From Eubacteriales bacterium (lineage in GTDB: Bacteria; Bacillota; Clostridia; Oscillospirales; CAG-382): DNA of 64,000 nucleotides. Shown piece after piece: positions 21,257 through 52,026 of this stretch (within the stretch, counting starts at the first letter, position 1; each line of letters starts with the position of its first letter). Where the stretch lies: the NCBI GenBank assembly GCA_028702135.1, contig JAQVPJ010000003.1:62001-126000 (forward strand), read 5' to 3'. The position numbers and the translations under genes are program-made. The notes beneath the pieces are model-generated. The model saw nothing but the letters and a program-made list of their open reading frames with translations. It did no database searches and had not been told where the DNA came from.

Positions 21257-21697
21257 ATGAAAAAAGTAAACATATATACCGACGGTGCGTGCAGGGGAAA
21301 CCCCGGAGCAGGCGGTTACGGAGTAATCCTTGAATACGACGGCAGGGAAAAGGAGTTGTCCGAGGGGTTCGCGGAGACTACCAATAACCGCATGGAGCTT
21401 ACCGCGGCGATTGTGGGGCTTGAAGCTCTAAAACAGCCTTGTGAAGTAACACTCTACAGCGATTCAAAATATCTTGTTTATGCGATAGAAAAAGGATGGC
21501 TTAAAAGCTGGCGTGCAAAGAACTGGAAAAAAAGCGACGGTAAACAGGTGCTTAACATCGACCTTTGGGAGCGCCTTATCCCGCTGATTGAAAAGCACCG
21601 CGTGAGCTTTGTTTGGGTAAAGGGGCACGACGGAAATAAGTATAACGAACGATGTGATACCATCGCCACTACTGCGGCGGATAAAATTATTGTATAA
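21257..21697 (+). CDS. rnhA: Ribonuclease HI
   Basis: NIYTDGACRGNPGAGGYG, NNRMELTAAI, WVKGHDGNKYNERCD. Confidence 0.95.
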   Translation: MKKVNIYTDGACRGNPGAGGYGVILEYDGREKELSEGFAETTNNRMELTAAIVGLEALKQPCEVTLYSDSKYLVYAIEKGWLKSWRAKNWKKSDGKQVLNIDLWERLIPLIEKHRVSFVWVKGHDGNKYNERCDTIATTAADKIIV

Positions 21698-48372: not shown

Positions 48373-49683
48373 TTAATTTAAAATAGCTATGTTGGTTGCA
48401 GATAAACCTTTCTCGGTCTCTATTGGAATAAATGACAGTATCATACCTTCAATAATTTTATTTTGAAGGTACTTTGGAGCATTAGAGATATGAAAGAAAT
48501 ATCGTCTATTATTGCATTCAATAAAACCAAAACCGCGTTTTGAATTATAATTCGAAACTTTTCCATTGAGCCTTGTAGTTGTTTGTGTTATTGATGAATT
48601 AGACAAAAATGTCTTAAGTGCCTCTTCATTATCAGATGAATATGATTTCTCTTCCATTTGTTGTTGTATAATCCCTGAGAATTCAACAGCCTCTGTAAAG
48701 GCGCTCGAATATTTAGTATTTTTTAAAGACGTTGCATGTTCAGTTGAATTTTTTGCTGCTGATAAAAATCCAGCTCTATATAAGATTTGTGCTTTTGCAT
48801 ATTGCGTTAAATGGTTTTTGGAATTCATTTTTTCAGCTTGCATGATGCAAGAAATAGCATCGTTTAGATTGCCTATCTCATAATATTGCATTCCAAGTTC
48901 CCTATAAAGATAATCTTTTTTTCTGTATTTCAGTAAAGCACTACATTTTTCTATAGCCTCATTGTGCTTTTTATCAGCTACTAAAATATCAATCTCCAGT
49001 TCCTTCACATAATACTTTTTTGAATCGGTAGGAAACACTTTTTTTGCTCTTTCAATATTTCCTAGAGATAAATAGCTTTTTGAAAGTTGATATTGGTATT
49101 CTTCCTCTTTCGGCTTTATAAAAAAAGCTTTCTCAAGATAATTAATCGCTTCTTCAATATGATTTCTGTCAATAAGTAATTTTGCATGCTGAAAGCAAAT
49201 CGCTGCATAGGTGTCCTCATTTTGCCTTTTTTGCTCAGGAGTATAATTATTCCATATAGGATCACACTCGGCAAGTGATTTTAGCGCTTTCCAAAATTCA
49301 TCCTTTTTTAACACCATCATGCTCCCACACATTTGCCTTAGAGAGTAAGCATACCTATATTTTACAACTAAGTATTCAGGATACAATAATAATGCTTTTT
49401 CAAACCATTGGTTCGCGGTTTTCCAATCTTTTTGCATATAATATTGATATCCTACACAATAAGACCACTTCGCACTTTGGGGCTCCTTCTCAACTAACAT
49501 ATTATAACGTTTAATTGCAAGGTCGTATTTTGACAACCGCGAAGCACACCAAGCTGTTTTTTCAATAAAAAATATTTTCTCAGGTAATTGCCCAAGTAAT
49601 TCTTCATAGATATCTAGCGCCAATTGCCATTCATTATTTGATTCGTGCTCTTCAGCATTTCTTATTAGCTTATCTTCAGTCAT
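48373..49683 (-). CDS. TPR-repeat protein with C-terminal cold-shock domain
   Basis: Multiple TPR units (WSYCVGYQYYMQKDWKTANQWFEKALLLYPEY); C-terminal LNGKVSNYNSKRGFGFIECNNRRYFFHISNAP cold-shock fold. Confidence 0.85.
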   Translation of the reverse strand: MTEDKLIRNAEEHESNNEWQLALDIYEELLGQLPEKIFFIEKTAWCASRLSKYDLAIKRYNMLVEKEPQSAKWSYCVGYQYYMQKDWKTANQWFEKALLLYPEYLVVKYRYAYSLRQMCGSMMVLKKDEFWKALKSLAECDPIWNNYTPEQKRQNEDTYAAICFQHAKLLIDRNHIEEAINYLEKAFFIKPKEEEYQYQLSKSYLSLGNIERAKKVFPTDSKKYYVKELEIDILVADKKHNEAIEKCSALLKYRKKDYLYRELGMQYYEIGNLNDAISCIMQAEKMNSKNHLTQYAKAQILYRAGFLSAAKNSTEHATSLKNTKYSSAFTEAVEFSGIIQQQMEEKSYSSDNEEALKTFLSNSSITQTTTRLNGKVSNYNSKRGFGFIECNNRRYFFHISNAPKYLQNKIIEGMILSFIPIETEKGLSATNIAILN

Positions 49684-51554
49684 TTCAGCACCTTCTCGGT
49701 TGTTTTGAAATGTAGCTTTGCAAAACAATTGAGCTTGTCTTTTCCCTTGTTCTGAATAATGCTACGAGCTACACTCTCTACTTCAGATGAAGCACCCTTA
49801 GGTAAATCTATGCTAGCCTTTTTACTAAGTAATTTCAACTGCTTAAGATACATATCGCGTGCAAGTATAGATGCCGCAGCAACGGCAACATCTCTTTCAC
49901 CCTTTGGAGTTTGAAATAATTCTATTTTTTTACCTTTTTCCATTAAGGCTTTTTTTATGTAGGATTCGTCTCCAAATTGGTCGGCAATTGCATGTTCACA
50001 ATCTGAATGAGATAAAATATTCTCAATGACACGCGCATGACCCCAAGCAAGCAATAGATTCAGATTTTTCATTCTGCTATATAATTCATTGTATTTTTCA
50101 GGTAAAATAAATATAATTTCGTATTTTTTATTTCCTAATATATCACGTATTTGAGTAGCTAACTCTCGATTTTTATTATCAGTATTTTTTTTGCTATCTT
50201 GAACCCCAATTGAAACTAATTTTTCTTCATCAATTTTATCAAGCAATACACCGGCTATCACAAGAGGACCAAAATAATCTCCTTTTCCGGATTCATCAGT
50301 GCCAATATGTTTTTTAAAAACAGGAATTATTTTTTCTGTTGTAGTAGCTGACTGGATTCGGGTTTGCTCTTTTGGCTTTTGGTTTCCATGGATTTCTTTA
50401 CGTTGCAATATCTCAGATTCGGTGTATCCATTTTTAACTAAGATCCGATATCCATCCATAATCGCACTTGATATTTCTCCAATTCTATTCTCAACTTGCA
50501 TAATATCTTGCAAATTAACTATATCGTCATCTTGAGCCGGATCAGCGTGTAATTCATGGCATCGAATACTTTCCCAAACAGTATTTAATTTATTTAATAC
50601 AAAACCATTTCTCGAAAGGTCTTTTATGTACTTTTCAAATTTTTTATTTCTTAGGCAATTTCCAATATCAGCTTTATTCGGGTTTTGTTTATAATCCTCA
50701 AATGAAATAAAGCACTTGTCAATCATTAATCGAATAATAAAGCCTTCAAATGTTTTTGCAAAAGGATATAAGATAGGATTATATAATGGGATTTTTAGAT
50801 CTTTTTCTTTTACAGCTTCTAAAATTCCGATCGCACTAACAAGTGTTATTTGATCATTTTGATACAGATAATCAAACGCATCTCTAGAAATACGTTCTTG
50901 TGCTCTTTGATAAATGTCTGAGAACACCTTAGGTATTTCTTCTATTGCTTTTTTTACCTGCTTTTGCTCTCTTTCTGGAACATATATTAAAGCATTTTCT
51001 ATCTCAGATAATGGATTGATAGAATGCACTATACCTAATATCTCCGTAAACAATGGAGATGATGCACCTTGTAGCAGTAATGTACCATTGGTAAATTGCG
51101 TAATTGAAAACCTTTGCGTGCCCTGCATTACATCAAATTTGTAGTTAATAGCTTCTCTGGGTTTGCTTTCTTCAATGTTTTTGTATTTAGCTTTAATTGC
51201 TGATTTTATTTCTTCTTGTTTTGTTTGTGTTGCAATCCTTATTGCTAAATGTATTGGGATGGTCTTTGTCAACGGAGTCGTTTCGTTTTGTTCAGGATAA
51301 GTCTGCTTCTTTTCATATTGCTGAGGCTCAAAAAGCAAATTTAATTCCTCTGGAGCGTTTTCTAATACGATTTTTGAAGATTTGCCAGCTTTGAAATACA
51401 GTACCACGCCAAAGCTTTCGCAGAAATACTTATATCCGTAACCATTATTAATCGCTTTTTCGTTCGTAATACTATAGTGAGCATCTGTTAGTATAGTTCT
51501 AACTTTATTAATTGCTATATCCCTTTCTAATACAAACGTAATGGTAGTTGACAT
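49680..51554 (-). CDS. Fusion of RnlA-like HEPN ribonuclease module and C-terminal RNase HIII
   Basis: C-terminal HIGTDESGKGDYFGPLVIAGVL...GERDVAVAAASILARD (RNase HII/HIII); two N-terminal TBP-like modules; central helical region with ESIRCHELHAD (R-x4-H HEPN motif). 4-bp overlap with the TPR-CSD gene. Confidence 0.75.
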   Translation of the reverse strand: MSTTITFVLERDIAINKVRTILTDAHYSITNEKAINNGYGYKYFCESFGVVLYFKAGKSSKIVLENAPEELNLLFEPQQYEKKQTYPEQNETTPLTKTIPIHLAIRIATQTKQEEIKSAIKAKYKNIEESKPREAINYKFDVMQGTQRFSITQFTNGTLLLQGASSPLFTEILGIVHSINPLSEIENALIYVPEREQKQVKKAIEEIPKVFSDIYQRAQERISRDAFDYLYQNDQITLVSAIGILEAVKEKDLKIPLYNPILYPFAKTFEGFIIRLMIDKCFISFEDYKQNPNKADIGNCLRNKKFEKYIKDLSRNGFVLNKLNTVWESIRCHELHADPAQDDDIVNLQDIMQVENRIGEISSAIMDGYRILVKNGYTESEILQRKEIHGNQKPKEQTRIQSATTTEKIIPVFKKHIGTDESGKGDYFGPLVIAGVLLDKIDEEKLVSIGVQDSKKNTDNKNRELATQIRDILGNKKYEIIFILPEKYNELYSRMKNLNLLLAWGHARVIENILSHSDCEHAIADQFGDESYIKKALMEKGKKIELFQTPKGERDVAVAAASILARDMYLKQLKLLSKKASIDLPKGASSEVESVARSIIQNKGKDKLNCFAKLHFKTTEKVLK

Positions 51555-51844
51555 TTTACTCTCCCCATTTCTTTGAATTCTGTGCTTCTTACAATTTACA
51601 AGCTTCCCACTATTGCTACATGATCTGACCCGTGAACGAACTTCACATTATTGCTAAAATGCGAATTTCCTTTTTTTATCTTATCAGAATATGCATTCAA
51701 CCTTTCCTTCAAAGCCGAATATCCAACTGAAAACACCTCCGTTTTTTATGCCGATAATGTCTTATTTACCTTTAAAAGTTTCAAATTCTCCATTACCATA
51801 AGGCTGTGATAACGGAAAAAGTTTCTGCGCCGAGCGTGTCTTCG

Positions 51845-52026
51845 GGGGTTTTTGTGGTAGGAAGTATCTTCTTTCAGAACGCAAATGAACATAATATTAC
51901 ACGGATATTATAAATCATTTTGTGCGTATTGTCAAGTTCAAAAAATCCTGTTATTTTTGTAACATATTACATTTTGGGCATGAAAAAACTGCTTATTCGG
52001 TTAAAAATAGGCAGTTTTTTGACATG
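51845..52026. repeat. Duplicated intergenic element, copy 2
   Basis: See 40568-40748; hairpin at 51988-52015 identical between copies. Confidence 0.8.

Follow-up and report, generated by a model that had tools for sequence, protein, structure and literature searches.

An RnlA-like HEPN module and RNase HIII in one predicted chain, with a TPR–cold-shock-domain partner, in an Eubacteriales genome

The window analyzed here is a stretch of 64,000 nucleotides on a contig from an Eubacteriales bacterium. Its reverse strand carries a gene in which an RnlA-like module with a predicted HEPN endoribonuclease domain is joined in one open frame to an RNase HIII (Table 1). RnlA proteins are a family of anti-phage toxins that cut RNA, whereas RNase HIII degrades the RNA strand in RNA:DNA hybrids. 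A second gene, which encodes TPR repeats and a cold-shock domain (TPR-CSD), lies directly downstream, and its ATG overlaps the stop codon of the fusion by 4 nt (ATGA). The leader of about 350 nt between a promoter match and the fusion contains an ORF of 46 amino acids (51596–51736, reverse strand) with a GTG start and GGAGG just upstream, which is possibly a leader peptide, a small antitoxin, or a gene remnant. The neighboring genes are housekeeping or unknown, and no obvious defense island was seen around the locus.

Table 1. Positions of the fusion gene, its parts, and its partner in the window
Feature	Position	Strand	Details
Single-chain fusion of RnlA-like HEPN module and RNase HIII (P0001)	49680..51554	-	624 aa, ATG start
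TBP-like module 1, residues about 1–85, like RNase HIII N-domain / RnlA NTD	51300..51554	-	N-domain profile match at 14–55
TBP-like module 2, residues about 100–190, RnlA NRD like	50985..51257	-	QRFSITQFTNGTLLLQG
RnlA-type HEPN endoribonuclease domain (predicted), residues about 245–380	50415..50822	-	alignments, profile, Foldseek match to RnlA
E270, predicted HEPN catalytic Glu	50745..50747	-	equivalent to E. coli RnlA E258
R331-x4-H336 (RCHELH), predicted catalytic Arg and His of the HEPN site	50547..50564	-	equivalent to RnlA R318 and H323
RNase HIII catalytic domain, residues 415–624	49683..50312	-	active-site D420, E421, D525, E553
Partner gene (P0002), TPR repeats and C-terminal cold-shock domain, downstream of fusion	48373..49683	-	436 aa
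Cold-shock (OB-fold) domain of partner, residues about 372–435	48376..48570	-	Pfam CSD 4.5e-08
Match to a sigma-70-type promoter (TTGACA-N17-TATAAT), upstream of fusion by about 350 nt	51907..51935	-	12/12 consensus match only

The C-terminal part of the fusion scored 193.5 bits against TIGR00716 (rnhC), for which the cut-off is 161.2, with the best stretch at residues 377–618, and the Pfam model RNase_HII matched residues 417–619 with an E-value of 1.1e-30. In a phmmer alignment, D420, E421, D525, and E553 corresponded to D97, E98, D202, and E232 of Bacillus stearothermophilus RNase HIII (2d0a), the DEDE active site of that enzyme. As judged from this alignment, the DEDE site of the fused domain is intact. 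A profile of the RNase HIII N-domain built from 17 sequences matched the fusion twice, at residues 14–55 and 134–172, and on this basis two TBP-like modules, both real, precede the predicted HEPN domain. The first match was weak (8.8 bits), while the same profile gave 56 bits at residues 11–89 of a second fusion, L056, described below, in which module 1 is 40–43% identical to RNase HIII N-domains from related genomes. In module 2, Q162 and G163 were invariant in alignment A6 and nearly invariant across 19 homologues. A preliminary description of this DNA had assigned the C-terminal ~210 amino acids to an RNase HIII catalytic domain and had seen two TBP-like beta modules ahead of it, and both assignments are borne out by the rnhC score, the DEDE residues, and the two profile matches. 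Compared to bacterial RNase HIII (RnhC), which also has an N-terminal TBP-like domain and a DEDE catalytic domain, the fusion has about 300 amino acids of RnlA-like NRD and HEPN sequence inserted between the two.

The HEPN active site of E. coli RnlA comprises E258, R318, and H323, of which R318 is mutated in PDB entry 6y2s. E270, R331, and H336 of the fusion shared columns with these residues in two separate MAFFT alignments, and RCHELH, the only Rx4H motif in the 624 amino acids, aligned with the RnlA active site. These three residues, together with Y258, were invariant in all 19 homologues. The motif differs from the RHxxFH of most RnlAs, and C332 of the fusion is replaced by His in nearly all other homologues. 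For structure prediction, a full-length mixed alignment was dropped, as it wrongly put the end of the HEPN part on RNase HIII, and residues 1–408 were used instead. The resulting AlphaFold2 model, with nine RnlA relatives as input, was of low confidence (pLDDT 54.5, pTM 0.42). When it was compared by Foldseek with 350,542 PDB chains, the nine best matches were all E. coli RnlA (E-values from 6.6e-07 to 1.3e-03, probability 1.00), but their TM-scores were low (0.23–0.42) and the input alignment of the model was itself made of RnlAs. The model is consistent with an RnlA fold and is no proof of a HEPN fold.

Three curated Pfam models of RnlA (PF19034, PF15935, and PF18869) were considered. In a scan against 24,736 models, RnlA-toxin_DBD (E=0.04, residues 247–314) and RnlA_toxin (E=0.093, residues 148–173) ranked directly below RNase_HII, with scores of 14.7 and 13.4 bits that lie under the gathering score of 27; PF18869 was not listed. 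A profile of four unfused RnlAs gave the fusion 15.3 bits, compared to a maximum of 10.5 among 1683 scored shuffles, hhalign of the fusion against four RnlAs gave P=0.00026, and BLAST against a Bacillus plasmid RnlA gave E=4e-05 for residues 148–273 in a single comparison. A profile built from L056 and 17 other RnlA homologues with the window protein left out scored the fusion at 48.8 bits (E=1.7e-13, residues 110–372) and matched no decoys. With a profile that contained neither fusion, the window protein was not reported at default filters. Membership of the window protein in the RnlA family is transitive but strong on these comparisons, through a chain that leads from the window protein to L056, to L072 (a locus with separate RnlA and RNase HIII genes), and to RnlA. 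Direct searches with the N-terminal 408 amino acids found no relatives among PDB sequences, plasmids, and 392 genomes of the class, where the sole match, G417, was a serine recombinase; viral contigs scanned with single protein sequences likewise yielded none. PADLOC returned nothing for the fusion itself at E<=1.

The second fusion was found when the RNase HIII domain was searched over 399 genomes of the phylum for long open frames. L056 encodes 621 amino acids with an RnlA-like N-terminus (Pfam RnlA_toxin 1.1e-05, DUF3378 1.5e-05) and an RNase HIII at residues 409–616. It is 31% identical overall to the window fusion, and only 25% identical in the N-terminal part. The two proteins have the same domain order in unrelated genomes, and the window fusion is therefore no assembly chimera. 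L056 also overlaps a TPR-CSD gene of its own (fusion end 3814, TPR-CSD start 3811), and TPR-CSD is the only gene kept beside both fusions. In an RNase HIII tree the two fusions, the only ones of the RnlA–RNase HIII type found, did not group together, and a common clade was not rejected (AU p=0.257). The central proposal of the preliminary description, that an RnlA-like HEPN module and RNase HIII form one chain with R-x4-H as the HEPN active-site motif, is thus upheld by homology to the second fusion, by the alignment of R331 and H336 with R318 and H323, by the invariance of both residues in the 19 homologues, by the RnlA matches of the low-confidence model, and by gene context. Neither finding that it had named as contrary evidence, a middle region lacking a HEPN fold or a failure of R and H to be conserved, was seen, although the pLDDT and TM-scores of the model are too weak to establish a HEPN fold alone. 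In the profile search that it had suggested, the RnlA Pfam models came next after RNase_HII, both below their gathering score. The TPR-CSD partner, the missing RnlB, and the 2013 description of RNase HI-type RnlA fusions go beyond what it had covered.

RnlA was found to be linked to RNase H elsewhere. In the 399-genome phylum sample, five genomes carried an RnlA above the Pfam cut-off, and all four loci with visible flanks included an RNase H, which was a fused RNase HI in two (G797 and G573), an adjacent RNase HI in one (G137), and an adjacent RNase HIII in one (G847); the fifth locus starts at a contig end. RNase HI–RnlA fusions were also found on four viral contigs (L104, L105, L106, and L108), and a linked RNase H was absent at six further viral-contig RnlAB loci (L020–L025). 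At L072, the RnlA and RNase HIII genes overlap by 4 nt. They are followed by a gene for 195 amino acids (L072:6551–7138, forward strand) that is weakly RnlB-like (17.7 bits), and its product is possibly a diverged antitoxin.

Two operons place the TPR-CSD family in RnlAB systems. First, a viral contig (IMGVR_UViG_3300042923_001807; L107/L120) carries the four-gene operon TPR-CSD–RNase HI–RnlA–RnlB. Its TPR-CSD protein is 38% identical to that of the window over the full length (273 bits) and likewise accompanies RnlA and an RNase H, but the RNase H is of the HI type and unfused, and RnlB is present. The TPR-CSD gene of this operon seems to be a fourth component of RnlAB systems that has not been reported. 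Second, a plasmid of Bacillus sp. BR3 (L012) carries the operon rnhC–TPR-CSD–rnlA–rnlB. It resembles the window locus in combining RNase HIII, TPR-CSD, and RnlA, and its rnhC product is 49% identical to the window protein in the catalytic domain; its genes are unfused, however, and RnlB is present. TPR-CSD, as a gene that recurs at these loci, is a candidate for a third component, and it appeared in no paper searched.

A search for RnlB was negative for the window, for the whole window genome (93% complete), and for the other fusion genome (G655, 96%), whereas it was positive for four of the remaining five RnlA genomes. It is possible that an antitoxin has gone unrecognized, both fusion genomes being incomplete. 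Both also encode a separate RNase HII. A stand-alone RNase HI lies within the window (21257–21697, forward strand; Pfam RNase_H 149 bits). The cell thus has further RNases H besides the fused domain.

Anantharaman et al. described RNase HI–RnlA fusions (Cauli_VI + RNase H) and RnlA with TBP-like domains in 2013 (PMC3710099). Like the window protein, those fusions, of which L104, L105, L106, and L108 are examples, combine an RNase H with an RnlA toxin of the HEPN type in a single polypeptide, with a predicted action near RNA:DNA hybrids. In contrast to them, the window fusion has no N-terminal Cauli_VI and RNase HI domain, and its RNase H is of type 2, structurally distinct, and C-terminal. What is new compared to 2013 is that an unrelated RNase H has been swapped in, the order of the domains is reversed, RnlB, which lies downstream of the earlier fusions, is absent, and a TPR-CSD gene is the partner. 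Beyond that HEPN survey and a TBP paper, the literature search found no paper in which RnlA is joined to rnhC, to ribonuclease HIII, or to a cold-shock domain.

E. coli RnlA–RnlB (RNase LS) shares with the fusion the TBP-like modules and the HEPN domain, with E258, R318, and H323 conserved, and E. coli RnlA also functionally needs an RNase H (PMC5308261). There, however, the RNase HI is chromosomal, encoded elsewhere, and acts in trans, and the antitoxin is RnlB. E. coli RNase HI binds the middle domain (NRD) of RnlA and stimulates cutting, and inhibition by RnlB also requires RNase HI (PMC5308261). Direct contact between RnlA and RNase HI was not reproduced in vitro, and Naka et al. postulated an unknown factor that links the two (PMC5308261). 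RNase HI (type 1) and RNase HIII (type 2) differ and are found at opposite ends of RnlA, and the association between RnlA and RNase H has thus been made at least twice. Because the linkage repeats with two unrelated types of RNase H in opposite fusion orders, it argues that RNase H function itself, rather than one protein surface, is part of how the toxin works. With a single chain and one small partner, the question of why RnlA toxins need RNase H becomes directly testable.

Collectively, these results make it probable, in our view, that the locus is a two-gene system of the RnlA toxin family in which the toxin chain carries its own RNase H, in the form of RNase HIII, and a TPR-CSD controller has replaced RnlB. 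The controller role is assigned to TPR-CSD because no other co-encoded gene is retained beside both fusions and because RnlB is missing. In such a system, the HEPN domain would be a metal-independent mRNA endonuclease kept quiet by the TPR-CSD protein, and the TBP-like modules and the RNase HIII domain would bind RNA:DNA hybrids. E. coli RnlA needs contact with RNase H for both activation and control; in the fusion, this contact would be supplied in cis and, within one chain, would be permanent. Infection or stress might stop the synthesis of the controller or create hybrids or ligands of the cold-shock domain; the HEPN site would then be released, mRNA would be cut, and growth would stop. Toxicity, the controller role, the trigger, and phage defense are thus what we infer for the fusion pair. 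The divergent RCHELH motif, the sub-gathering Pfam scores, the lack of an obvious defense island, and the blank PADLOC result all count against a two-gene toxin system. The suggestion in the preliminary description of a hybrid-responsive stress or anti-phage effector is plausible and fits the published biology of RnlA and RNase HI. A more far-reaching form of the proposal is tentative and rather doubtful. In it, TPR-CSD would be a new kind of antitoxin that also acts as a sensor and takes the place of RnlB, and the HEPN domain would respond directly to RNA:DNA hybrids through the fused RNase HIII, giving self-contained, hybrid-sensing abortive infection.

TPR-CSD need not be an antitoxin, since it coexists with RnlB in the Bacillus plasmid and L107 operons. 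It is conceivable, if not what we expect, that TPR-CSD in an RnlA-like system is instead an activator, a sensor, or the factor bridging RnlA and RNase H, and that inhibition comes from the fused RNase HIII or from a small unrecognized antitoxin. The same coexistence with RnlB, the linking factor postulated by Naka et al. (PMC5308261), and the 46-amino-acid ORF in the leader all agree with such a role, but TPR-CSD is the one gene kept with both fusions and is translationally coupled like an antitoxin, and no conserved small ORF common to the two loci was identified.

The protein could also be an RNase HIII with an accessory RNA-binding domain derived from RnlA that has lost its toxicity, acting as an R-loop or primer-processing enzyme aided by an RNA-binding TPR-CSD. 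The lack of RnlB in both fusion genomes, the divergence of the HEPN motif, the resemblance of module 1 to RNase HIII N-domains (clear in L056), and the absence of a visible defense island would suit such an enzyme. We consider it unlikely, as the invariance of E270, R331, and H336 despite an N-terminal identity of 25% would be unexpected in a dead nuclease, other RNases H (RNase HII in both genomes, RNase HI in that of the window) are at hand, and members of the partner family are found in genuine RnlAB operons. A fusion that arose by mis-assembly or by accident, with a fortuitous Rx4H motif, to which the sub-threshold RnlA Pfam scores of the window protein alone might point, is extremely improbable, being already contradicted by L056 as an independent fusion with the same partner, by the profile match with L056 included, and by the nine top Foldseek matches of the low-confidence model, all of them RnlA.

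Further RNase HIII genes were seen during these searches. In the Microcystis phage MaAM05 (L014), rnhC lies among the bacterial housekeeping genes gatA, coaE, and yitJ, and host sequence may be included there. Two other long RNase HIII ORFs, L057 (512 aa) and L058 (430 aa), proved on checking to have no RnlA part. In L057 (1163–2701, reverse strand), the N-terminal TBP-like region is seemingly doubled, and a helical-repeat-like ORF adjoins the gene.
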